Virus record (IMG/VR): IMGVR_UViG_3300009705_000031
Location: 1 to 43,868 of that record
From: a virus
Length of the DNA: 43,868 bases
Direction: 5' to 3' (one strand)
Part shown: positions 3,001-43,048 of the stretch, in pieces
Position numbering within the stretch: position 1 is the first letter of the stretch
Layout: each line of letters starts with the position of its first letter
The notes under the pieces: generated by a model
Told to the model about the DNA's origin: nothing
The model's database searches: none
The model's input: the letters and a program-made list of their open reading frames with translations, nothing else
Made by a program: the position numbers and the translations under genes

Positions 3001-6000
3001 TCTTTTTGTATTGTGTCAAGCATGGCGTCTGTCCCTCTACCAACGGTAGACAAATATGGGAATACGGTATTCGCAATAGCTATTATCGGCCTAACTCCTC
3101 CCGTAACATCATCAGCCTTCATACATATACTAAAACCAAACCCATCAGCAAAAAGAAAATTACTAGTCAATAAAGAAGCAGACATCGGAAAATCATATGG
3201 ATCACTATTAAAATTTAAAAAGGGCGCTATGTTGTCCTCGTAGAACTGAGTGTTATCGCCGCCACCTTGCGAAAGAGGGGCGTCCAAATAGTGTGAGAAA
3301 CCCTCATTTTTTACATAATAGAGGTTTGTATCCAGTCCATTGTTTCTTGACGATGCTCCTTCGCCTGTCTGAAGCGTCCGATCACCTTCCATGCCCGTAC
3401 CCGTTGCTCCACCAAGGTCTCCGCCTCCACCGCCCATACCCATACCACCGCCTCCACCTCCACCGAGACTATCTCCACCGAGATCTGTGCCGCCCATAAC
3501 GTCCATGTCATCCCCAAAATTATTTCCGCCACCTTCATCTCCGCCACCTCCGCCACCTCCGCTCCATGATGGAGTCCATTTTCTAGGGTATCCGCAATTA
3601 TAACTATGTCCATCTCCACCAGTGGCACCACGTTTACGGTTGATAGGTCTATATATTTGTTTAAAATTAGAAATCATAGCCCTATACCAATATAGGTTTT
3701 CTAGCTGAGAAAGGTTTCTATAGATTTTCAAGCCTGATGTATCACCACACAGGAGAGGGGTCTTTTGCTTGCCTATCTGAGAGTCCGAGTGGTCATCTTT
3801 ATTATAATAAACAGTGTCGCTATCTTCTAGAGGTCCAACGTGTGGATTCCTTGTAGATGCGGTAATTTGCTCATCTACCGTTATTCTACCAATGACCTCT
3901 CCATTGGGACCAGTATGAGCTCCGGAGGTGCTGTGAAACATGTCTATCTTATAGAGCCAAACTCTTCCGTGCCCAGCATGAACAGGCTTTCGGGCTTTAT
4001 ATCCATACGGAGATAAGATTCTGGTCTGAACTGCTTTATCAGAGTTTTTTTCAAACCTCCCATAAGAATAATCATCTATCTTATTCCAGTCAATATCACG
4101 GTCGTATTTTCCTGTTGCATGATTGATAAATGCTGCGGATAATCCGGCAGTTTCGCGGCTTAGACCAAGATCCAACGCGACTCTTAGGCTTATTCCACGG
4201 CGATTTTTCTCCGCGCTCTCGTCCAAAGCACCAAGCGTATTAGTAATAGGTATTCCACCTTGGGCCTCATGGTATCTCCCAAAATAATCAACCCCTCCTG
4301 TAGAGCTATACGTATTACCAACCTCACTGATAGCAAGCCAATAACTAGGCGTCTCACTGCCGGAGTGAACGTCATCTGGTTCGGTTGGCTGCTTTACTAT
4401 ATCTATAGACTGACCGAACATATAGCCCCACGGCACTAAATCCATACCGTTACGGGTATAAGCATCCGCCCCATGATACCCAGCATATCCTGCCAGTTCT
4501 GTGACCCCATTTTCATCTATATAAGGAGTAGTCCCCTCGCCTATCATGCCGTCTCCGTTAAGGCCGTTAGGAGAGAATAACGTTTGCTTGTATCTCCAAG
4601 CGCCAAGATTGCTATCGTCTTCTGGGTGATGAGCCCATGATATTCCATCAACGTCCCGAAGAGAAGAGGTGTCTGTATTTACCGTTAGGTTTTTATCATC
4701 ATATAGATAATATTCCGCATCTGAAGATGTGCGTTTTACATACTTAATACCATTAATAGGATGTACAATATCTTTTGGGGTCTCGTTTAGTCCTCCATCA
4801 ATCTTGATTCTATCGCCATCCCCTAATAGCTCGGTGTCAAATGTTCCATCTCCAGAGGGACCTCTTATTGTAATTTTATTTCCCGCGATGGCGTTTATAA
4901 ACCCAGCACGGCGCTCATAAATATCAACCCTTCCGCAATGCTTGGATATTCCTAGCTGATAATAATAAGAAGGATAAGAATAATTAACTTCGATGGGAAC
5001 CCTATAGAAGTAAGTTACTTTGTCCTCGACGCACTCATCTTTCCATATCAACTCAGAGTCATCCCTTGATTTGAGACTTAATAATGTTACATCGCTAGGC
5101 GTTGACCTCTCACTGAAATCAACAACAAGTCCCTGAAGAACGTCGGTAATTTCGCCCTTTTCGTTCTTTACCTGACTAAAAAATACACCACTTTCTTTAT
5201 TCTTTAGCGCAGCCGCAGGCATTGCCGGACACCCGGGAGGTTGAACACCCTCGTTAACCCTCTTCTTAATGTCATCATCGCCCGATACAAATGGATTATC
5301 TACGACCGTAGCTGGAACGCCACAAAGCCCTATTCCCAGTTCCTCATCACCTACCCCATCATAAGGAGGAGGCCTACTAGCACAGTTGTAATCCGCGCAT
5401 TCTTGCGGAGACGTTTCTGTCCATCCCGGCTCGTAGGGGCTCAGGTTCCAAGTCCATACATTTCCAGTATAGGTAGAGCATATCCCACTACTATCTTCAG
5501 TAGTCGAACCTATCCCCAAAGATTCAGCAACATCTCCACTGAAGCTCATACTATATCCAGCTTCTACGCCAGCATTAGTTCCGTCTTCACCACCCCCACC
5601 TGCAAACTCTGTTAAATTTCTAGCTGCGGTTCCAACATCTGGAAAAATAATCCCACTAATAAGTTCAGTGTCAGAGAATGTTTCCTCACCACCAACCTTA
5701 TCATACGTAACAGAGAAGCAAAAAAAAGTAGTCCTCACACCCTGTACTAGAGTCTCGTTGGTAAGATAAACTTCTTGAGAATGACCTCTATAGGCAACGA
5801 TAGCTATATCATCTAGAATTTTGATATCACTTGGACGGAATTCAAGCTTCTCATAGTCTGTGCTGGGGTTGCTTTTGAAACGGCCACGATTACGATAAGG
5901 GCTACTCAAAAAACCAGAAGCAGACGCCGCTCCTTCATTTAGAACATCAAAAGAAGCTACCTTGTCATTGAAGTTTGTGAACTGCTGAATTCCGCCGGGA

Positions 6001-30864: not shown

Positions 30865-31242
30865 TTAATCAACAAACATTAAAAATGCTGACCCCAAATC
30901 TCTATAGAAAGTATGCGGAGCTTTGTTTGGAGATCCTGAACTACCCGTGCCGGAAGGGAGGTCGCACGGGGAATCGTCACCGTCACCATTTGAGTCAGTT
31001 ATATACTTTATCGTTAACGTGTCTGCATCTGTTATACCTGTAACGAGATAAGTATAGGTTGAAATGTCAGTTCCGCCTCCTCCGTGGGCACCTCCTCCGG
31101 GTTCCATTTTGTAGACAGTAACATGATCTCCAACCTGAGCATTAGCCACGGAAGACCCATAGTTTGCCGTATAGGTTGGGCCAGAGCCAGAACAGCTACT
31201 TAAAGCAACACTAGAATATATTGTAATAGTATTTCTTGCCAT
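30865..31242 (-). CDS. Small Gly/Ser/Thr-rich virion-type protein, unknown function
   Basis: 125 residues with no recognised family. It is rich in Gly, Ser, Thr and Asp (ANYGSSVANAQVGDHVTVYK, GGGAHGGGGTD) and has a beta-strand pattern ending YLVTGITDADTLTIKYI, which resembles small fibre-associated or collar proteins. The start codon overlaps the stop of the 854-residue fibre (TAATG), so expression is coupled to it. It may cap or decorate the fibre. The gap to the enzyme cassette downstream is only 22 bases, with an SD and no promoter-like motif. Confidence 0.6.
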   Translation of the reverse strand: MARNTITIYSSVALSSCSGSGPTYTANYGSSVANAQVGDHVTVYKMEPGGGAHGGGGTDISTYTYLVTGITDADTLTIKYITDSNGDGDDSPCDLPSGTGSSGSPNKAPHTFYRDLGSAFLMFVD

Positions 31243-33806
31243 TAGTCTGGTAAATCCTGACCTATAATAAATCCATCAAAAGTGGTTCCAGCGTCATTCG
31301 TGCAGAGGAATCCATAAACATCTGTATGGGCTGTTGCGGTAGACATGGTTGGGGTTATATTTCCAGCCCACCTAACCGTTGCTGCTGTATTGCTAGCGTC
31401 AGAATCAACATCAGCCCAAGAGACCGTGTTTGCAGAGGATGCATGTTGCGTAAGTCTAATGATAAACCTTTGCCCTCTTTTTGCATTAGCAAATATTATC
31501 TTGTTTACAGTGCCGACACTACTATTGGAAGGTAAAGATTGATTTTGATAATTACCAGTACTTAAATCAAAAGTAAGAGTTCTTGCGGAAGACGCTGTGG
31601 GTGTATCGTTAGCCGGGACAGCTTCTTGAACATATGAACCACCAACTAAATTTAATCTATCTTCGCTCTCGTCCCACTCTAAGTAAGAACCAGAAGTAGC
31701 TCCAAACAATTTAACGTCATGTCCTGTGTCATTAACTCCTACGGTAAGGGTGCCAGCTAGCGTTAATCCTCCACTAACCAAGGTCATTAAATCCCCATCG
31801 CTCGTATGGCCAATCGTAGTGCCGTCGATAATAATGTTATCAACCGTTAAGGCAGTAAGAGTTCCTACCGATGTAATCGCTGATTGGGCAGCTTGTGTGA
31901 CAGTAAGAGCAGTACCGCTTGCGTTACCTGTAACGTTGCCCGTAAGAGGCCCAGCGAATCCAGTTGCAGTCAAAACCCCGGTACTGGAATTGAAAGTTAG
32001 GTTACTACCTGACTTCGGCCCCAAATTGCCAGTTGCAGCAGTAACGAACAATGGAAAACATGTTGTGTCGGTAGATTCGTCAGCCACAGTTATCGCCGTA
32101 GGTATGCCACCAGTAGCAGCCTCCCAAGCGGGCGCTGATCCAGCACCTGTAGCAGTTAATACGTGACCATCGGTACTCGCAGCCAATCTGGTAAGCACGC
32201 CGCTAGCATTACGATAATAAATATCTCCCTCTGCATCACTGCCCATTGTAACGGTAACACCGGCCAATACAGTCCCAGTCGATAACGTCCCAGACGTAAC
32301 AGTGCCAATCGTGACTAAATTTGCGGCAGATGTAATAGCTGCCTGCGTGCCACCAGTAACGGTAGCGGCAGTTCCGCTTGCATTGCCCGTAACGTTACCC
32401 GTCAAGGCACCGGCAAAGAGTGTAGACGTAAGAAGCCCGCTACTTGGGTTATATGTTAGTCCCGTATCAGTCTCAGCACCCTGAGATCCCGTCGCCCCGT
32501 CTACAAAGAGTGGATAAACGGTTTCATCGGTACTATCGTTAGCGCTGACAGTAATACTGGTTGCGTCTGTTGCCAACGTGGCGGTAGCAGCGTTACCCGT
32601 ACAACTACCAGAGCTACCAGAAACTGTCGTTTGGTCGCCAGTATTGCTCCCCGAAATACTAGCGTCGGAAAGCGCTGTGCTTAACTGAGCTACGGTAAAT
32701 GAACCCAGAATAGCAGCGTTGCCTGTCGATGTAATATGTCCCGTTAGATTGGCATTTGTCGTTACCGTAGCGGCGTTGCCTGTACAGCTACCAGAACTAC
32801 CAGAAGCATCGCCCGTAACGTTGCCCGTAAGAGGCCCCGCGAATCCAGTTGCTGTTAAGATACCTGTATCAGAAGCGAAGGTTAGATTGGTGCCAGACTT
32901 TGGTCCCACATTACCCGTTGCCGCAGTAACGAACAAAGGAAAACACGTAGAATCAGAAGATTCGTCTGCTACAGTTACAGTGGTCGCAATAGCAGCAGTA
33001 CCGGACGTGCTTTGATTAAGGGTGGGAAACGTACAGTTTGTTAGAGTTCCAGATGCTGGCGTTCCCAATACGGGCGTTACCAACGTTGGACTAGTAGCGA
33101 ATACTAATAATCCGCTACCTGTCTCATCTGTAATCGCAGTAGCAAGATTTGCAGAGCTAGGCGTTCCTAAAAATGTTTCAACACCAGTACCAAAAGTAAT
33201 TGTGGCTTGAGCTCCAAGGCTAGTTCTCACGGTAGCTCCACTCTCTACTACCCAGCCACCAGCACTGCCTACGATAAAATTACTATCTGAACTAGCTAGA
33301 GCAGCAATCGCAGCAAGATCGGCATCATACCCCTGCACATCGGAACCTATAGCTACCCCTAGGTTAGTTCTAGCTCCACCAGCGGTAGAAGACCCAGTTC
33401 CACCATGAGCCACGGCAACATCAGTAGCCTCCCAGTCTCCGCTAGATATTGTTCCCACTACGGTAATCTCGGGAGACAAAGCTCCGCTAGCATCTAAGTT
33501 TACGGATTTCCCAGCAGGATAAGTACAGAACACAGTATGTGTGCCAGAACTCAAAGTAATAGCACTCGTATCTCCAGAGCTATTCGCTAGGATTGTAGTT
33601 CTAGCGAGAGTAGTCCCCGACAAAGTATATGTCCCAATTCCTACTTCCCAAGCATTATTAGCGTCTTCTATAACATAATAGGTTGTATTACTATTTCCTA
33701 TTACGGAAAAAGTTTGATAACCAACAACTGCCCCCGTGAGAGTTATCGTTCCCGTTCCGGTAGTTGTAGTAGTTTCTTTTACTCTATCTTTAAGTACTAA
33801 AGCCAT
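31242..33806 (-). CDS. Large tail fibre protein with three long internal repeats
   Basis: 854 residues. The N-terminus (MALVLKDRVKETTTTTGTG, then a GYQTFSV strand and NNAWEVGIGTY) is the common virion-attachment head of many aquatic-phage fibres. The shaft is Gly/Thr/Ser/Ala-rich with three copies of a roughly 60-residue module containing CFPLFVTAATGN (YPLFVDGATGS in one), NLTF and GFAGPLTGNVTGNASG. The C-terminal end (KRGQRFIIRLTQHASSANTV to FDGFIIGQDLPD) is a compact beta domain likely to be the tip. Expected to form trimers and bind receptors. Its stop overlaps nothing upstream, but the next gene's start is coupled through TAATG at 31242-31244. Recombination between repeats could change fibre length. 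Confidence 0.88.
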   Translation of the reverse strand: MALVLKDRVKETTTTTGTGTITLTGAVVGYQTFSVIGNSNTTYYVIEDANNAWEVGIGTYTLSGTTLARTTILANSSGDTSAITLSSGTHTVFCTYPAGKSVNLDASGALSPEITVVGTISSGDWEATDVAVAHGGTGSSTAGGARTNLGVAIGSDVQGYDADLAAIAALASSDSNFIVGSAGGWVVESGATVRTSLGAQATITFGTGVETFLGTPSSANLATAITDETGSGLLVFATSPTLVTPVLGTPASGTLTNCTFPTLNQSTSGTAAIATTVTVADESSDSTCFPLFVTAATGNVGPKSGTNLTFASDTGILTATGFAGPLTGNVTGDASGSSGSCTGNAATVTTNANLTGHITSTGNAAILGSFTVAQLSTALSDASISGSNTGDQTTVSGSSGSCTGNAATATLATDATSITVSANDSTDETVYPLFVDGATGSQGAETDTGLTYNPSSGLLTSTLFAGALTGNVTGNASGTAATVTGGTQAAITSAANLVTIGTVTSGTLSTGTVLAGVTVTMGSDAEGDIYYRNASGVLTRLAASTDGHVLTATGAGSAPAWEAATGGIPTAITVADESTDTTCFPLFVTAATGNLGPKSGSNLTFNSSTGVLTATGFAGPLTGNVTGNASGTALTVTQAAQSAITSVGTLTALTVDNIIIDGTTIGHTSDGDLMTLVSGGLTLAGTLTVGVNDTGHDVKLFGATSGSYLEWDESEDRLNLVGGSYVQEAVPANDTPTASSARTLTFDLSTGNYQNQSLPSNSSVGTVNKIIFANAKRGQRFIIRLTQHASSANTVSWADVDSDASNTAATVRWAGNITPTMSTATAHTDVYGFLCTNDAGTTFDGFIIGQDLPD
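31905..32990 (-). repeat. Imperfect direct repeats inside the tail fibre gene
   Basis: Three copies of a roughly 175-190 base unit around 32800-32990, 32365-32560 and 31905-32095, sharing long near-identical stretches such as the segment encoding GFAGPLTGNVTG. The first and third copies are the most alike and lie about 890 bases apart. They encode the fibre shaft modules. Confidence 0.8.
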
Positions 33807-35152: not shown

Positions 35153-36157
35153 TTAGAACGAGCCAGCGAGAACTCTTCTATTATCTAGTACACCAAAGCC
35201 TAATTCAGCCCAGCCATAATACCCTTGTCGTTGATGTCGGTGAAGAGCTTCGTCTTCATAAACTTCAACTTCTTTCTTAAGAGGCATTACAAAACTATCG
35301 CTACTTGCTTGGTCAAGACCAATGATAAGTTCGACATCTGTGCTAGCCAACGAACCACCAAGATCACTCGTGAAGTAATTTTGATATTCTTGACCATCAC
35401 CAAATTCGAATAAGTCGTGCAAGTTAACACCGAAGAGTCTTGTCAAAGGAGCTCCGTCATCAGCCGATTCGTAAATTTCACGTCGTGAAACTTCGTCAAG
35501 CTGATCAACACCCCAGTTGCGGATATCTTCAATAGCTTCTGGCGACAAGTACATGTCAGTAAGGCGACCGTTAGCAGTGACGCTATTACCGCCACCATTA
35601 CGTCTCATGACTGTCTTCATGAGCGAAACGATACGTTTGGTGAATTGACCAACCGCAGCATCTGCATCATAAACCAAAATATTTCTGTCAACAGCAGCAG
35701 CGAGCAGTGTGTGCCAGCCGTCGTCGTTGATTTTCTTAACAAACGATGATTCCAAAACTTGCATTGCGCGAGCAACAACGTTCCAGTTAGCCTCACGAGC
35801 ATATTTAAGCAAGAAGTCAATCGAGCTAGTAATGCCGTAAGTGTTAACCATTACGTAATCGCCTTCGACGCTACGTTCTGGAATACGACCGTGACCCGGA
35901 TTGGTATAAGCGACATGTTCGCTTTCTGTACCCGGAGCAAGAAGATCGAGTGGGAATTCAGGGGTTGCGCCCGGTTCAAGTGGCATAGCTTCATAAATTG
36001 AAGTTACGACATCGCCGAACAAAACTCCTTTACGTAGTGGCGTTTCCAAAGCCTTTGCGATTTCTCGCTGAGCTTCGATAGCCACCGCTTTATCTGAACT
36101 ACCGGATTGTTTTAGCAATGCGATGAATTCATCGGAAGGACGTTCTTTCATATTCAT
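35153..36157 (-). CDS. Major capsid protein
   Basis: 334 residues, placed after portal, protease-scaffold and decoration genes and just before a strong intrinsic terminator. The sequence is consistent with an HK97-fold capsid protein: a helical N-terminal arm, a central long helix region (DFLLKYAREANWNVVARAMQ), a DMYLSPEAIEDIRNW segment typical of capsid P/A domains, and a beta-rich C-terminal end GWAELGFGVLDNRRV. Arginine is often encoded by CGT or CGA here, where neighbours often use AGA, as expected for a heavily expressed gene. The SD AGGAG is nine bases from the first ATG; a second in-frame ATG two codons later is less likely. No separate delta domain is visible; the fused protease may trim the N-terminus. 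Confidence 0.88.
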   Translation of the reverse strand: MNMKERPSDEFIALLKQSGSSDKAVAIEAQREIAKALETPLRKGVLFGDVVTSIYEAMPLEPGATPEFPLDLLAPGTESEHVAYTNPGHGRIPERSVEGDYVMVNTYGITSSIDFLLKYAREANWNVVARAMQVLESSFVKKINDDGWHTLLAAAVDRNILVYDADAAVGQFTKRIVSLMKTVMRRNGGGNSVTANGRLTDMYLSPEAIEDIRNWGVDQLDEVSRREIYESADDGAPLTRLFGVNLHDLFEFGDGQEYQNYFTSDLGGSLASTDVELIIGLDQASSDSFVMPLKKEVEVYEDEALHRHQRQGYYGWAELGFGVLDNRRVLAGSF

Positions 36158-36186: not shown

Positions 36187-36660
36187 TTACGGTAGGTTGA
36201 TTTCTACTTTGGCATACCCGTCTTGATCTATTGAACTTACAAATGTTCCAATGGAAGATCCCGCTCTGCCCGTGTCATCTGAAATACATCCGCTATTAGC
36301 GATTGTTCCATTTAACTGAACATAGGCAAGGTCGCCAGCTGCCGCAGCTGTTTGGCAACTAAGGTTGTTGGTAACAACATATCCTTTACGAAGAATGGTA
36401 ACTTTACCACCCTTTTGCACTTCATCCTTATGTTGATTAATATGCTGACGAGTAAGGTCAAGATTGACCATATCGTTCAACAAAATCCCCATAGGGGCTT
36501 TCCCGGATGCTGCCGTATATGTAACCAAGGCTGCGCCTTGATCCATAGCAGAACCCGATCCGCCGGTGCTCACCGAAACAACACCACCTCTAGTAGCAGT
36601 TTCATTCATGAAAAAGCTAATGTCGGTCTGTAATTCATTTCTATCTGATTTAAGAGCCAT
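36187..36660 (-). CDS. Capsid decoration/stabilisation-type protein
   Basis: A 157-residue Gly/Ser/Thr/Ala-rich protein lying between scaffold and major capsid protein, the usual place for head decoration proteins. It has a polar N-terminus (KSDRNELQTDISFFM), then a beta-rich body including APMGILLNDMV, GGKVTILRKGYVVTN and GDLAYVQLNGTI. This resembles small proteins that bind the outside of HK97-fold capsids and are often annotated as decoration or structural proteins. It has a strong SD (AAGGAG) and a 29-base gap to the capsid gene with no promoter-like motif, so the two are probably co-transcribed. The role is inferred from position, size and composition. Confidence 0.6.
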   Translation of the reverse strand: MALKSDRNELQTDISFFMNETATRGGVVSVSTGGSGSAMDQGAALVTYTAASGKAPMGILLNDMVNLDLTRQHINQHKDEVQKGGKVTILRKGYVVTNNLSCQTAAAAGDLAYVQLNGTIANSGCISDDTGRAGSSIGTFVSSIDQDGYAKVEINLP

Positions 36661-36679: not shown

Positions 36680-37384
36680 TTATTTCTTAAGATTAGCCGT
36701 TGATTTAAGTAAAGATCCAAACCAATCGCTAGCTGTCGAGCGAAGTTCAACCGCAGGGTCGTCTTCGTCAATAGCTTCAGCCATTGCAATGTTCTTTTCC
36801 ACTTCTACTTCTTCGAGATCTTCAGCAGATGCTTCGGACTCGTCAATCTCTTCCTCAAGAAGTTCGTCGTCGGCCTTAGAGGCTTTCTCGTCCTTCTTGT
36901 CTTTTTTATCTTCATCTTTATCTTTATCTTTATCTTCGTCTTTCTTATCTTTGTTGAGCCAAGGTGGCATTTTTGCAACAATAAAATCGAAAGTCTCTTG
37001 ATCAAGATCTTCAAACTTAGCAATAGCCTCATCCAGCGCTTCGCCTTCAAGACCTGCTTGGGTTAAAGCAATAGTTCTCTTTTCGAGAGCTGCGGCTTTT
37101 TCAATTTCGGCTACTTTAGAAATAGCTTCTTCTTTAGCGGCTTCGGCTGAAGCCAGTGATACTTCAAGTTCTTCCACTCTAGATAGAGCTTCTGTAACTT
37201 TAGACTCAAGAGAGGCAGAAGCCTCGTCTTTAGCAGAAATAGTTTCTTCGAACGTTCGCAATTGAGCTTCAATCGCTTCGGCTTTCTGAGTTTCCATTTC
37301 CTGCTTCATAGTCTCATTAGCTAGACAAGCTTCGGCCAACGCGGCTTTCACTTCATCCAGCTGTTTCTGTAAAACATCGGACAT
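36680..37384 (-). CDS. Nested in-frame scaffold protein from an internal start
   Basis: Within the protease-scaffold gene, Met269 (ATG at 37384) is preceded by AAAGGAGACTACA. This is a near-perfect Shine-Dalgarno with good spacing that also encodes Lys-Glu-Thr-Thr. Translation from it gives a 234-residue protein containing exactly the coiled-coil and acidic scaffold region without the protease domain. The sequence following the start (MSDVLQKQLDEVKAAL) looks like a natural N-terminus. Lambda makes its scaffold Nu3 from inside the protease gene C in the same way. The start and its SD are seen directly; that the product is made in bulk as the main scaffold is inference. Confidence 0.7.
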   Translation of the reverse strand: MSDVLQKQLDEVKAALAEACLANETMKQEMETQKAEAIEAQLRTFEETISAKDEASASLESKVTEALSRVEELEVSLASAEAAKEEAISKVAEIEKAAALEKRTIALTQAGLEGEALDEAIAKFEDLDQETFDFIVAKMPPWLNKDKKDEDKDKDKDEDKKDKKDEKASKADDELLEEEIDESEASAEDLEEVEVEKNIAMAEAIDEDDPAVELRSTASDWFGSLLKSTANLKK

Positions 37385-38188
37385 TGTAGTCTCCTTTATT
37401 GATGAAACAGTAATAAGTTTACTTTTACATTCACTAAAACTTTGACTATCATTTAAAATGATACTTCGAGGATTAGCAGGTTTAGAAACCAAGCCCTTGC
37501 CAGAGAAAGATATATTTCTTAATAATCTACCTACTTCATAACCCTCATACTCTCCTGTTCCCCCGTAGGATCGGAGATGCTTCGACAAAAATGCAGAAGC
37601 CTCTTCTCTCGCCACAACCTTGCTTTCGCCCTTAGAATTTCTTAGAGCGTAATCAAAACTTGGGAACAAACATTCCATGGATACAAACCATTGATTTCCT
37701 TCCTCAATCTCTTCTATAAGATTAGCCATACGTGCTTGAAGATCCATATCACTCCAAGACCTATAGAGCACGGCGTTTGTGATAATATTAAAGTCTTCAG
37801 GAGAACCAGCTTGACTCCAGTCAACGGCTCCATCTAAAGATTTACCACTAAAATCGACCACATAATTTCCTGTAATGTGGCCAATGATATCTTTTTCGTC
37901 GTGCATATAATTAAATTGTTTATCTTCGGGAGTTGAGCGTGCTGCCCACATCTCTTGAGGATCAAAAACATCATCGTTTTTATTCCAGCCGCTACTCACT
38001 AAAACAGAGCTTAGGTAATAAAGATCAAATTGCTTATCTTCTTTATTATCGGCGACTGTATGAGATAAGGCAATAGCCTTTTCTTCATCGGTTATCTCTA
38101 GATCGATAGGAGCACAGTATGCAATTGTGCAATTGTTCTCTACTAGATCTTGGATACCGTCTTTTATTTCTTGTGCATATGCTTTCAT
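36680..38188 (-). CDS. Prohead protease fused to capsid scaffold
   Basis: 502 residues in two parts. Residues 1 to about 250 look like a prohead maturation protease. A likely catalytic His96 lies in NYMHDEKDIIGHIT, a likely nucleophile Ser170 in WFVSMECLF, and the domain closes with GKGLVSKPANPRSII. From residue 269 the sequence becomes a long coiled-coil scaffold (about 270-400). A very charged Lys/Asp linker follows (about 410-440), then acidic stretches and a short C-terminal helix (DWFGSLLKSTANL) that could bind the major capsid protein. Protease-scaffold fusions between portal and capsid genes are well known. An internal start at Met269 probably also makes free scaffold (separate entry). 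The SD AAGGAG lies just upstream of the ATG at 38188. Confidence 0.8.
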   Translation of the reverse strand: MKAYAQEIKDGIQDLVENNCTIAYCAPIDLEITDEEKAIALSHTVADNKEDKQFDLYYLSSVLVSSGWNKNDDVFDPQEMWAARSTPEDKQFNYMHDEKDIIGHITGNYVVDFSGKSLDGAVDWSQAGSPEDFNIITNAVLYRSWSDMDLQARMANLIEEIEEGNQWFVSMECLFPSFDYALRNSKGESKVVAREEASAFLSKHLRSYGGTGEYEGYEVGRLLRNISFSGKGLVSKPANPRSIILNDSQSFSECKSKLITVSSIKETTMSDVLQKQLDEVKAALAEACLANETMKQEMETQKAEAIEAQLRTFEETISAKDEASASLESKVTEALSRVEELEVSLASAEAAKEEAISKVAEIEKAAALEKRTIALTQAGLEGEALDEAIAKFEDLDQETFDFIVAKMPPWLNKDKKDEDKDKDKDEDKKDKKDEKASKADDELLEEEIDESEASAEDLEEVEVEKNIAMAEAIDEDDPAVELRSTASDWFGSLLKSTANLKK

Positions 38189-38205
38189 GTGAATCTCCTT
38201 AAGAG

Positions 38206-38238: not shown

Positions 38239-40341
38239 TTAACTAAAACTAGCAAAAGTGGAGGCGTAGATATATCGCATTTCATCAACACTAGGTTTCT
38301 TGTTCTGTGCTTTTGAAAAACTAGCGATAGAAGTTTCTATATCATTCTTGAAATCGCCCGACGGTTTTGTACCAGAGTCAATAATAGCTTTTATTACATC
38401 TGCATCAATATCCATGAACGGTTTAACTCCAGTCAATATGCAAAGCTTGAGATATTCTAGCTGGTCAAACTCTGACTTTGTTAGGCTTCGAGCGTTCTTC
38501 TTATTGAAGTGTGCTAGAGCCATAGGCATAACCAACTCAGAAATATCTTTCTGCGCTTCATAAGCCCATAACGTAGTAGATACGTCACCTTTACTGCGAG
38601 GTAGAACTCGCTTTTGTTTTCTCTTTTGCTTATCTCTAGCGTTTTTAGGTCTCCCTCCGTCTGGATCAGGAGTCGCGGTATTCGTGTCTTCTACTGTCGG
38701 TTTTGTAGTCTCATCAACCTCTACTTTGTTTATCTGGTCAATCTCAGATACTGGAAGACCTAAGTTCTCAAGGTAGATATCATTATCCAAAACATCTTTA
38801 GTAAGTGCGATCTTGGCTATATCTTCTTTATGCTGTGGGTTATGATACGGCCCTGCCTTCTTGGGTGAGAGCGCATCGTTAACTCTAGATCTCTCTTCTC
38901 TACGAACTCTAATTTTCTCGATAGCTGGTAGCTCTCTGAATCTTTCGAGAAGCGTTTCATGAGATATAATGTCTCTATCTGCTAGCTGGACTAGTAATTG
39001 TTTCTGTGCAGCTTCGTCTGCCAATATAATTGAGTCGAAGTGAATTTCTGCGGGGAATCTAAAGCCCATAGCTTTCTGAATGATCTTAATCTCATGCTTC
39101 CAAAAACCCTTTAAGATTTCACGACCATACTCAAGTCTTTCTACTAAAGTCTTCAGACTAACAAAGTTATTGGTATATCCACCACCTGAAGATGCTCCAG
39201 TCAGAGTGGGAGGAATTCCAAGACCTGCATATACACTCGTGAGTATTGGCTGGTATTTTTCTGAACCTAAGAACTTATATACCTGACTGTTGCTTTCTTT
39301 AAAATCAATCTCAGGACCCCAAACTAAATCCATAGTTCCACCACCAACATTACTGGCAAGAATATCCCTAAGCTTATTAATAGCCGCCTTAGTAGGTATA
39401 ATCTTATGGTCTAGATCGCCAATTCTCCACAGTCTAACATTAGATATAGCTCCATCAAGAGCTGCTAGATCTGCAAGTTTCATTTTTTCTAGCATAATGA
39501 TATCGTCGAGGATCGCATAAATCATTGGGTTTGCCCAAAGGTTCCAATCATCTTTTTTGTAATGGAACATTCTCACTTTGTCTTTATCTAGAGGGATTTC
39601 TCTTTCCCCCTGCGAAAACCTCTTCATCATACCGGCAGGTAGGTTCTGTTTTTTTCCGTCTCCAGACATCATCAAAGAGTTCATCGTTGTCTTTGATACC
39701 TTTAGTACATACTCGATATCTCCAGTGAACATTGACGCATTAGCATTCTTAACATCGACGGCTAGAGGGTTGAGAAAATCATACTTCCAAGGGATCTCTC
39801 TCTTAGTAAAATCTATATCTTCAATCTTCATATCTGCGGCAGCGGTGCTTCTCTTAAGTTCAGCTTCTTTTTTCTTACTTATCTTCGCAGTGCTTCTCTT
39901 TACAGTAACGTTACCACATCTATATAGATAATTTAAGAATCTCTCTGATCTATCCAGACCATCAACTTGTTCGAACCATTTTCTATAGAATCTCTCAATC
40001 GATTTGTTTGGGTGAACAAGAGTAATGCCTTGAGATGCAAAATCCCCCATCAGATCGATAACATTTCTGATAATTCCGACTTTATCGTATGCCTGCATAC
40101 ACATCTTTATAATCCGTTTTTGCTGTGTTGGAACAGCTTCGCCGGGACGAAAGGAAGTGTAGTCGCTCTTGTCAAAACTAGGACGAACAGACCGCGAGGA
40201 CTCGATATCTAAGAATGTTCTATTGTTGTAAGCAAAGGATTTTTGTATGCCATCATAGGCGTGAACCGTATCGGAAGATGCCTCATAAGCCTTGCTGCGC
40301 TCTTGGTCATTTCCCCACGTTAAATAAAGATCATCTGCCAT
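38239..40341 (-). CDS. Portal protein
   Basis: A 700-residue protein expected to form the dodecameric ring at the capsid vertex through which DNA is packaged. It directly follows the large terminase. It contains the typical portal core, with an N-terminal helical/beta section and a central WANPMIYAILDDIIMLEKMK stretch. The segment LGIPPTLTGASSGGGYTNN is very characteristic of phage portals, in which a capsid-proximal helix precedes a Gly/Ser turn. After about residue 540 comes a charged tail: a Pro/Thr-rich linker, the basic run KRKQKR, then a helical end. This makes it longer than the common 450-550 residue portals, and the extra domain may face the capsid interior. The assignment is based on motifs and gene order. 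Confidence 0.88.
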   Translation of the reverse strand: MADDLYLTWGNDQERSKAYEASSDTVHAYDGIQKSFAYNNRTFLDIESSRSVRPSFDKSDYTSFRPGEAVPTQQKRIIKMCMQAYDKVGIIRNVIDLMGDFASQGITLVHPNKSIERFYRKWFEQVDGLDRSERFLNYLYRCGNVTVKRSTAKISKKKEAELKRSTAAADMKIEDIDFTKREIPWKYDFLNPLAVDVKNANASMFTGDIEYVLKVSKTTMNSLMMSGDGKKQNLPAGMMKRFSQGEREIPLDKDKVRMFHYKKDDWNLWANPMIYAILDDIIMLEKMKLADLAALDGAISNVRLWRIGDLDHKIIPTKAAINKLRDILASNVGGGTMDLVWGPEIDFKESNSQVYKFLGSEKYQPILTSVYAGLGIPPTLTGASSGGGYTNNFVSLKTLVERLEYGREILKGFWKHEIKIIQKAMGFRFPAEIHFDSIILADEAAQKQLLVQLADRDIISHETLLERFRELPAIEKIRVRREERSRVNDALSPKKAGPYHNPQHKEDIAKIALTKDVLDNDIYLENLGLPVSEIDQINKVEVDETTKPTVEDTNTATPDPDGGRPKNARDKQKRKQKRVLPRSKGDVSTTLWAYEAQKDISELVMPMALAHFNKKNARSLTKSEFDQLEYLKLCILTGVKPFMDIDADVIKAIIDSGTKPSGDFKNDIETSIASFSKAQNKKPSVDEMRYIYASTFASFS

Positions 40342-40400: not shown

Positions 40401-42401
40401 TTAGTATATATCGCCCATATTTTCTGTAAACCATGAAGGACCTTGATACAAGGGGCCGTTGTCTTCGTCTTTATCATTCTTATGTGCCGCCTTTTCGGCA
40501 AACCCTCCGTAATGGTCATAAGTCCGTACTGTTCTCTCTACGAACATCTGTCTAGCAGACATGTTAGCCATAATTAAAGAAGAGTAACGATCTTTTCTTA
40601 TTCTTCTTTTTCTACCCGCAGCTACCTTTACTTCAGGGGTATCCCATTTCTCTCTACCCAGTCCTGTTTGTGTCATTATAATCATAGATAGCTCATTCTT
40701 AAGCTCCTCGATCTCCATAACACAATCCTCTAAGGTATCATATACCCTTCCGTTTATGCCATCATCCTCAGCAGAAAGACCAAGACTCACGGAATCGAAG
40801 TCTGGAAATAAAACTAGCTTATCTTCAAAATCTTTTCTGAGACCATGATTAGCCTCTGCAAGCCAATCGTATTTTGCGAACTGGCACATTTTCAATATAT
40901 GCAGTCCGGGTTCGTCATCTGTATCTTTGGGTTTGTCATAATCTATAGTTGGCCATATCTTGACCTCGCCCTCTCTAACCTTATCTTTGTCGTGCAGGGC
41001 TTCCATAACAGCTATACCTCCACCCTGAGCGTCAAGAGCTATCTCTATACAGGGAAACACCCTCATGAGGTTTCTAATCTTCCTACCGCAGTACGAATAA
41101 AAATCATCCTCATCAACAAGGTGAGACTTGAGCTTCTCTCTATGTTGACTCCTGTTTGTAGTCCAGCAGTGAACAATACGTCGGTGGGTTTCGTTTACTT
41201 CTAAAACGACAATACTAAAGTTATCAACCTCTGACGCAGGATCAACACCAAAAATGTATTGTTTCTCTGGAACCCCCTTTAGCTGTGATTCAAAACTAAT
41301 GTCCTCGCCGTTTATCTTTATGCTATTCTCTAGAGAGGCGATACAGCCCTCAATTAAAGACCTTTTAAAGAACCCTTGGCTATCTGTAGTGAAACATGCT
41401 CCATACTCCATCTGGAAGATGCCAGAGTGGATTGTCGCTCTTGCTCTTGCTACCTGACCTTCATCCATAAAGCCTGCGGGAATAGTCGTTACAGGCATGC
41501 GGATCACAGAATACTCTTGCCAAGCAAAATCCTCTGGGACATCACCCCCAAAAATATCCCTAAGCTTAGCTCTATCGCCCTGACTATTTATAATATCTTT
41601 ATATCTCTTCCAGTATTCAGCGAAGTGATTGAAATCATAATAAGCAGTACCCGATAAAATAATCTGGTTTGATTTAGCATCAGCTAGACCTGTCTCCTCT
41701 TCCTTGTATTCTACACCAAGCTCAGATGCTTTTTTCTGTCTGGCCTTAGCCTTAACTTTCTCGATAGGAGAGGATGCCACAGCGGCGAAACCGGCAACAA
41801 CGTTTTCGAAAATCTCTCGCGGGATAGATGCAAACTCGTCTGCAATAATATCGTTCGCGCGCTGACCACGAATCTTACTTCCATCACCCAGAGGTAAACA
41901 AGTTATAGTGCTATCTCCAATATGCATAACACATCGATCAACATCTCTTCTAGGTCCGCTGTTAGAGCCGCACAGATCCCTCAGGACGGGCGCGTTCTTC
42001 CAAATGGTGTCCATATACTCAAACAAGACTTTAGACTGCCTAAATGCCGCACCGACAACGATAATCTTTCGCGTCGGCATGAACAAAGCTCTTAGCAAGG
42101 TGTACAAAGAGAGTAAAAAAGATTTACCCATACCTCTACTACCTATCAACATAGGGAACTTTTTATTCCACACCTCTTGAAGTATGAGCGATTGAAAAGG
42201 AGATAGCTCAATATTGAGAACGTACTTAGAAACAAAAGAGAAGTATTCCGGTCTCATCATGAGCCATGCTGTTCTCTCTAACATCTTTTCTGGATCTTTA
42301 TCGTGATAAAGAAAATCCATAGGATTGAATAAATTTTCTTCCTCTAGATCTACACCTAACCACGCATCTTCTATAGTCTTTGTTATATTTTTATCACTCA
42401 T
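40401..42401 (-). CDS. terL: Terminase large subunit (packaging ATPase and nuclease)
   Basis: A 666-residue protein that drives DNA into the prohead and cuts the concatemer. The ATPase domain has a Walker A motif GSRGMGKS (87-94), a Walker B DIIADE (184-189) with catalytic Glu189, and a coupling motif SGTAYY (250-255). The RNase H-like nuclease domain has acidic strands FGVDPA (384-389, Asp387) and IALDAQGGG (454-462, Asp457). Length is in the usual range or slightly above. The start overlaps the ClpP-like stop (ATGA), which implies translational coupling. I see no recognisable small terminase in the window; it may lie to the right. The gene is followed by a 59-base gap carrying a TGTGTATA motif ahead of the portal gene. 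Confidence 0.95.
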   Translation of the reverse strand: MSDKNITKTIEDAWLGVDLEEENLFNPMDFLYHDKDPEKMLERTAWLMMRPEYFSFVSKYVLNIELSPFQSLILQEVWNKKFPMLIGSRGMGKSFLLSLYTLLRALFMPTRKIIVVGAAFRQSKVLFEYMDTIWKNAPVLRDLCGSNSGPRRDVDRCVMHIGDSTITCLPLGDGSKIRGQRANDIIADEFASIPREIFENVVAGFAAVASSPIEKVKAKARQKKASELGVEYKEEETGLADAKSNQIILSGTAYYDFNHFAEYWKRYKDIINSQGDRAKLRDIFGGDVPEDFAWQEYSVIRMPVTTIPAGFMDEGQVARARATIHSGIFQMEYGACFTTDSQGFFKRSLIEGCIASLENSIKINGEDISFESQLKGVPEKQYIFGVDPASEVDNFSIVVLEVNETHRRIVHCWTTNRSQHREKLKSHLVDEDDFYSYCGRKIRNLMRVFPCIEIALDAQGGGIAVMEALHDKDKVREGEVKIWPTIDYDKPKDTDDEPGLHILKMCQFAKYDWLAEANHGLRKDFEDKLVLFPDFDSVSLGLSAEDDGINGRVYDTLEDCVMEIEELKNELSMIIMTQTGLGREKWDTPEVKVAAGRKRRIRKDRYSSLIMANMSARQMFVERTVRTYDHYGGFAEKAAHKNDKDEDNGPLYQGPSWFTENMGDIY

Positions 42402-43048
42402 AATCTCTTTAGGATAGCCTCAATAGAATTGTTCTGATTTTTACCAATTATAACATCAGCGAATCCATACTCTACTGCTTGTTGCCCACTGAGTATCCAG
42501 TCTTCTTTTACATTTAATCTACGTTTAAGTATAGACTTAATCTCTTCGGGTTTCTTGCCTTTAAATGCTACGCCCTTCTTGCAACACTTAGTATACATAT
42601 CATACATATCATTCTTACTGCGCTTAAGAGCCTCTGCGTTAGATATGAACTGCTTTGTCGTTCCGCTAAGCTCACATGCCCCTTCATGAATAACCCATTC
42701 ACAGTTGACGTGTGTCGCTCTGATGCCTTTTCCAAATGCCGCCTGTGGAATTATACTTCCCATCGAAGATGCAGAACCATAGCAAATAAACAAAAACTTG
42801 CACTGACTAGTTGCGACCGCGTCGTAGATAGCTAATCCGGCACTTTGGTCTCCACCCACATTATATTGATGTATAACAATCGGGTCAGAACTTAAAGATT
42901 CAAGCATTACTAGATTCTTGATAAACGTTACCGCGTCCTTAGAAGATAATCCATCGTCGTCTGGAGAAAGGAATATTTCCCGAGTGCTGGATAGAATTCC
43001 GTAGTCGTGCCAATTCGCTAGGGCTGAGTAATTAGTAGGTCTATTCAT
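42398..43048 (-). CDS. ClpP-like (S14) serine protease, probable capsid maturation or head-associated protease
   Basis: 216 residues with the ClpP fold signature. The oxyanion glycines are in YNVGGDQSAGLAIYD (residues 62-76), the nucleophile Ser95 is in GSASSMGS, His121 in WVIHEG and Asp183 in NVKEDWILS. It ends with the typical AVEYGFAD segment (191-198). All three triad residues are therefore present, and the length matches phage ClpP-like head proteases. It overlaps the terminase start by four bases (ATGA). In many siphophages a ClpP-like protein matures the head, but here a second protease candidate is fused to the scaffold downstream. This protein might instead act on another virion or host protein. 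Confidence 0.85.
   Translation of the reverse strand: MNRPTNYSALANWHDYGILSSTREIFLSPDDDGLSSKDAVTFIKNLVMLESLSSDPIVIHQYNVGGDQSAGLAIYDAVATSQCKFLFICYGSASSMGSIIPQAAFGKGIRATHVNCEWVIHEGACELSGTTKQFISNAEALKRSKNDMYDMYTKCCKKGVAFKGKKPEEIKSILKRRLNVKEDWILSGQQAVEYGFADVIIGKNQNNSIEAILKRL

Follow-up and report, generated by a model that had tools for sequence, protein, structure and literature searches.

An in-frame internal start site within a phage prohead-protease-like gene and its probable nested scaffold product

The window, a 43.9-kb virus record from a marine phage, carries a 502-residue open reading frame (ORF) that very probably is a two-start protease/scaffold gene, with the nested product serving as the scaffold (Table 1). 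Initiation at the internal codon Met269 is, judging from its conservation among relatives, extremely likely, and the scaffold role of the resulting product is somewhat less likely than internal initiation itself. According to the proposed mechanism, one ORF would give rise to two proteins via two in-frame starts. The upstream start would yield a few copies of a protease-scaffold fusion, and the internal ribosome-binding site at 37382-37397 would yield the 234-residue coiled-coil scaffold alone. Through the C-terminal half that they have in common, scaffold and fusion would co-assemble in the procapsid and thereby load the protease, which would then mature the head and clear the scaffold. With regard to protease activity, the scaffold role, co-assembly and the copy-number ratio, we infer from the modeled fold and from the precedents of phages lambda and Mu.

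This proposal would supply annotations of a protease and a separate scaffold for a large, mostly uncultured phage family whose fusion protein lacks a Pfam or PHROG match, and would extend them to genes labeled "hypothetical" in Bacillus and Microcystis phages that are in culture and allow a test. Our findings further suggest that an internal ribosome-binding site can persist through changes in codon register, spacing and start codon. As an example of selection acting on a non-coding signal that overlaps a gene, the site is a clean one, and it offers a simple means of finding nested scaffold genes elsewhere.

Table 1. Coordinates of the features discussed, numbered along the window
Feature	Position	Strand	Basis or remark
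Full-length protease-scaffold fusion ORF (predicted), 502 aa	36680..38188	-	Single ORF in loci L002-L307
AAGGAG, putative Shine-Dalgarno of the full-length product	38195..38200	-	
Prohead-protease-like domain, residues 1-268	37385..38188	-	AF2, Foldseek BFVD, invariant columns
Internal Shine-Dalgarno AAAGGAG (putative), within codons I-K-E	37391..37397	-	GGAG in 277/278 distinct relatives
Internal ATG (Met269), predicted start of the nested scaffold gene	37382..37384	-	ATG in 118/118 non-redundant relatives
RNA-structured stretch, +15..+60 after the internal ATG	37325..37369	-	Excess structure over synonymous shuffles
Nested putative scaffold ORF, 234 aa, 25.9 kDa, pI 4.3	36680..37384	-	Long helix, acidic linker, C-terminal helix
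Structural cement protein gene	36187..36660	-	Pfam Phage_cement, E 3e-9
Major capsid protein gene	35153..36157	-	phrog_2522 major head protein, E 5e-5
Portal gene, by position	38239..40341	-	Without Pfam/PHROG match; adjoins the protease gene in relatives

Conservation and context of the internal start site

The original prediction placed a Shine-Dalgarno (SD) sequence before an in-frame ATG at Met269. This was confirmed in the window, which reads AAAGGAG-ACTACA-ATG at 37397-37382 on the minus strand, the ATG being codon 269 and in frame with the ORF at 36680-38188. The main genes of the window contain 93 internal ATGs in frame, and of these only that of Met269 has AAAGGAG. Given that GGAG lies approximately 5-12 nt 5′ of five of these 93 ATGs, the motif alone is within chance, and the case for a nested start rests on conservation. 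The predicted SD strength averages -8.9 kcal/mol for the internal site versus -9.9 kcal/mol for the upstream site. Since the internal SD is thus slightly weaker, SD strength alone does not account for an excess of scaffold.

We collected 281 distinct sequences, three of which stop short of the junction, and scored the remaining 278. GGAG together with an in-frame ATG was present at 277 of these 278 junctions, a count that overstates the number of events given the shared ancestry of the relatives and that within-gene controls offset only partly. The spacing between GGAG and ATG was 6 nt in 119 sequences, 8 nt in 113, 9 nt in 44 and 11 nt in one. SD and ATG were present in all junction-spanning members of the first 80 relatives as well as in 52 more. 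As a control, the other internal ATGs of 118 non-redundant relatives were examined, and of these 1144, 5 had GGAG nearby. The prediction was to be given up if relatives lost the SD or the ATG while keeping the fusion. It withstood the check on the 278 junctions, the lone exception being L359, which carries a weak GGTG in place of GGAG at the nested ATG (GATGGTGTACAT-ATG). Further apparent losses of the SD turned out to be GGAG at other spacings, which a strict pattern had missed. Separate protease and scaffold ORFs were sought in loci L002-L307 and not found; the fusion was never split.

The codons that contain the SD differ between groups of relatives. In clade A, they encode K/R/Q-E. In a second clade (B), AGGAG and ATG are both present, and the SD is read as NNA-GGA-GAN, has a spacing of 8 nt and encodes x-G-D/E. 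A third group, obtained from a pattern scan that did not rank by similarity, mostly has NNG-GAG at a spacing of 9 nt, encoding A/V/M/T/P-E. The same DNA motif thus occurs in other codon registers and encodes unrelated residues between clades, bearing out the suggestion that the SD codons are not required by the protein. Clade B was reached via contig L159, which had been assigned to a SAR202 genome binned from a metagenome. L159 and two other contigs, L158 and L160, which were binned as Flavobacteriales and Planctomycetia MAGs, respectively, carry genes of the same phage family; in L160, the gene appears to contain a chimeric join.

Codon usage was analyzed in 32 clade-A representatives with less than 90% identity and in 118 relatives with less than 88% identity. 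Glu at position -3 is encoded by GAG in all 32 clade-A representatives, compared with 7-48% GAG at other conserved Glu columns, and the third base of codon -4 is G in all 32, even though the residue is K, R or Q. Synonymous change at the two SD codons is the lowest of the whole gene. Among the relatives in register A (n = 46), the Glu codon is GAG in 46 of 46, versus 25% elsewhere in the same genes. Among those in register B (n = 72), the Gly codon is GGA in 72 of 72, versus 29% elsewhere in the same genes and 68% at the next most GGA-rich Gly column, and in 70 of 72 the codon before it has A as its third base. Because of shared ancestry these sequences are not independent trials, and the relevant control is the other columns of the same genes. 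At the sequence level, the SD and start are shown to be selected as nucleic acid across distant relatives. Unusually low synonymous change was also seen in clade A at the FSGKGLVSKPANP codons (residues ~226-240; window 37469-37513, minus strand), where TCT and GGC, for instance, are each used in 32 of 32; this signal is weaker once clade B is included, and we thus make no claim of a second conserved block.

The residues that follow the internal ATG are also constrained. Of 118 relatives, 117 have S, A, T or P as residue 2 of the nested product and 116 have D or E as residue 3, as expected of a true N-terminus, which these residues would form; a small residue (S/A/T/P/G/C/V) follows 216 of 1144 other Mets. 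In the window, the nested product would begin SDVLQK after loss of its Met. The region from -60 to 0 before the ATG has a GC content of ~0.30-0.32, the lowest within the 600 nt examined, and is weakly folded, mostly on account of base composition, since synonymous shuffles fold nearly as weakly. Downstream, the 45-nt stretch from +15 has the strongest excess structure of the gene, -4.4 kcal/mol versus synonymous shuffles. The +15 to +60 stretch is more stable than shuffles in 89% of 117 sequences, with hairpins that differ by lineage, so that it is the position that is kept and not one fold. This RNA structure may have a role in initiation.

Distant cultured relatives and known nested scaffolds

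Through terminase similarity we reached Bacillus phage Slash and Microcystis phage MaeS, whose gene order is the same as that of the window and whose counterparts of the fusion are "hypothetical" proteins of 339 and 354 aa, respectively (phrog_16389). The phrog_16389 proteins of Bacillus phages Slash, Staley, Stahl and Stills and of MaeS resemble the window family in gene order and in having a protease-like part up to a PANP motif, then a coiled coil, and an internal start with a strong SD where the two parts meet. They differ in length (339-354 aa versus about 500 for the window family), in being annotated only as hypothetical and in their internal starts. Following PANP, the sites are TTTAGGAGGTATTGGC-ATG in Slash, CAAGGAGGTCATGGGAAA-ATG in Stills and CAGAAGGAGGAAAAAGTC-GTG in MaeS, and metagenomic relatives of this group start with GTG or TTG. 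The Slash start is codon 183 of Slash_35, and the predicted nested products of Slash and Stills both begin M-TLEEALQ. Across the group, AGGAGG is constant and the start codon is ATG, GTG or TTG. Given that the start varies as a residue (M, V or L) and is always a start codon, this group favors initiation and speaks against a ribosome pause. A group-specific pattern retrieved 12 loci, some of which are the same phages repeated, and each of them has the internal SD and start. The family HMM matched MaeS (E 1.4e-6) and Slash (E 1.7e-5) in a search of two sequences in which bias was high, a weak profile similarity; hmmscan of the window protein did not match phrog_16389.

The lambda and Mu precedents mean that the nested-scaffold mechanism is already known. 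In lambda, the scaffold Nu3 is made from an in-frame start within protease gene C and has the C-terminal end in common with the protease (Shaw and Murialdo, 1980, as cited in PMC8508860), with nu3 at 5132-5737 inside C at 4418-5737. By mechanism, the window's gene would be of the lambda C/Nu3 type: the putative internal start is in frame within the protease-like ORF, the stop codon is common to both products, and the nested gene has its own ribosome-binding site, which is kept in relatives. Lambda C carries an S49-family peptidase annotation, whereas the window domain resembles COG3740/XkdF-like prohead proteases in fold, and sequence homology between the window protein and lambda C/Nu3 was not found. 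Similarly, phage Mu Z has a "start site internal to gene I," and initiation at an internal Val177, preceded by a plausible SD, has been proposed at the same relative position in the Pseudomonas Mu-like phage PaMx73 (PMC4378225). In contrast to Mu I/Z and Mu-like phages, the window has an SD with a fuller consensus match, and its conservation was tested on hundreds of sequences; no sequence relation of the window protein to Mu I/Z was found. The open-access literature yielded no description of the window's protease-scaffold family. What is added here is the phage family, the strength of the comparative evidence and the codon-register changes.

Protease-like and coiled-coil halves of the fusion

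That the internal ATG lies at the boundary between protease and coiled coil, as originally predicted, agrees with the structural models. The AF2 model of residues 1-268 (118 rows; pLDDT 78.4, pTM 0.70) is disordered past residue ~247, and residues 271-377 form a single helix in the full-length model. The full-length model was poor (pLDDT 56), and the N-terminal model was used in its place. A Foldseek search of domain 1-268 against BFVD returned 57 matches at E <1e-3, many of them named prohead protease, COG3740 head maturation protease or XkdF; the probability was 1.0 for most matches, and the TM-scores to prohead proteases were modest (~0.3-0.5). The domain is thus similar in fold to named prohead proteases (COG3740/XkdF-like by their BFVD names). 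Foldseek found no real match between this domain and any solved structure in the PDB, and searches with its sequence of Pfam, PHROGs, the PDB and a phage collection (tblastn) yielded nothing useful. No described head maturation protease family was matched in Pfam or PHROG, and homology to the lambda C family was accordingly not found. Residues H96, H104 and S170 are invariant in 118 relatives and are candidate catalytic His and Ser residues. By fold and gene place, the prediction that the N-terminal domain is a protease is well supported.

As also predicted, the downstream product has the build of a phage scaffold. Its long helix is followed by an acidic, low-complexity linker, which is rich in lysine and glutamate and variable in length, and by a conserved C-terminal helix (LRS.ASEWLGS). 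This anatomy, together with synteny and precedent, points to a scaffold function. The gene order terminase, portal, protease-scaffold, cement and major capsid protein (MCP) is kept: of 215 loci that extend far enough downstream, 214 have the cement and MCP genes, and the portal gene was present in 231 of 235 loci.

Alternative explanations and other genes of the window

We considered whether K-E-x-x-M might be kept as a cleavage site between protease and scaffold, with the SD match being incidental. Cleavage sites of T4 gp21 are of the L/I-x-E type, and many clade-A relatives have I/L-K-E, located at the domain boundary. However, the first position can also hold T, M, F, S or Q, the register changes contradict such a site (x-G-D/E in clade B, A/V/M/T/P-E in the third group), synonymous positions carry a fixed G or A, and a start codon is always present, GTG or TTG included, all of which makes cleavage a most improbable reason for conservation. 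It is very improbable, too, that the internal SD acts as a pause that lets the protease fold before the coiled coil is made, without initiation. Its exact position at the domain boundary and the structured stretch downstream would suit a pause, but a start codon at SD spacing and the N-terminal-like M-S-D/E would not be needed, start codons would not have to stay ATG, GTG or TTG, and the sequence upstream, AT-rich and weakly folded, resembles that of typical initiation sites. As for an SD-like match arising by chance in coding sequence, single matches are unsurprising, since 5 of the window's 93 internal ATGs have a nearby GGAG, but chance is refuted by the retention of the motif, with its synonymous sites fixed, in 277 of 278 distinct relatives, and we regard the probability of chance as negligible.

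Alternatively, the nested product may be made and have another function, such as that of a protease regulator or a portal-associated core protein. The C-terminal half indeed has no homology to a known scaffold in Pfam or PHROG. Yet the gene lies between the portal and cement/MCP genes, where no other scaffold candidate was found, its product has a long coiled coil and a conserved C-terminal helix, and lambda and Mu provide precedents, so that a non-scaffold role appears improbable. To the preferred reading, a two-start gene with a nested scaffold, we add a broader one that is possible but doubtful: nested starts may be the ancestral, near-universal control of the protease:scaffold ratio for this fold, acting through a composite site in which a strong SD in an unfolded AT-rich stretch is combined with an initiation-raising hairpin at +15 to +60. 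In such a composite site, the hairpin would hold ribosomes coming from upstream.

Two further genes of the window deserve mention. A ClpP-like (S14) protein with PHROG matches to head maturation proteases is encoded next to the terminase gene (42398-43048, minus strand), and 32 of the 38 relatives whose sequence extends far enough upstream retain its gene. This ClpP-like protein could be the maturation protease instead of domain 1-268; for one phage to encode two such candidates seems unusual. At 31242-33806 (minus strand), an 854-aa protein contains many imperfect repeats, for example LFVTAATGN and GFAGPLTGNVTG, and is possibly a tail fibre.
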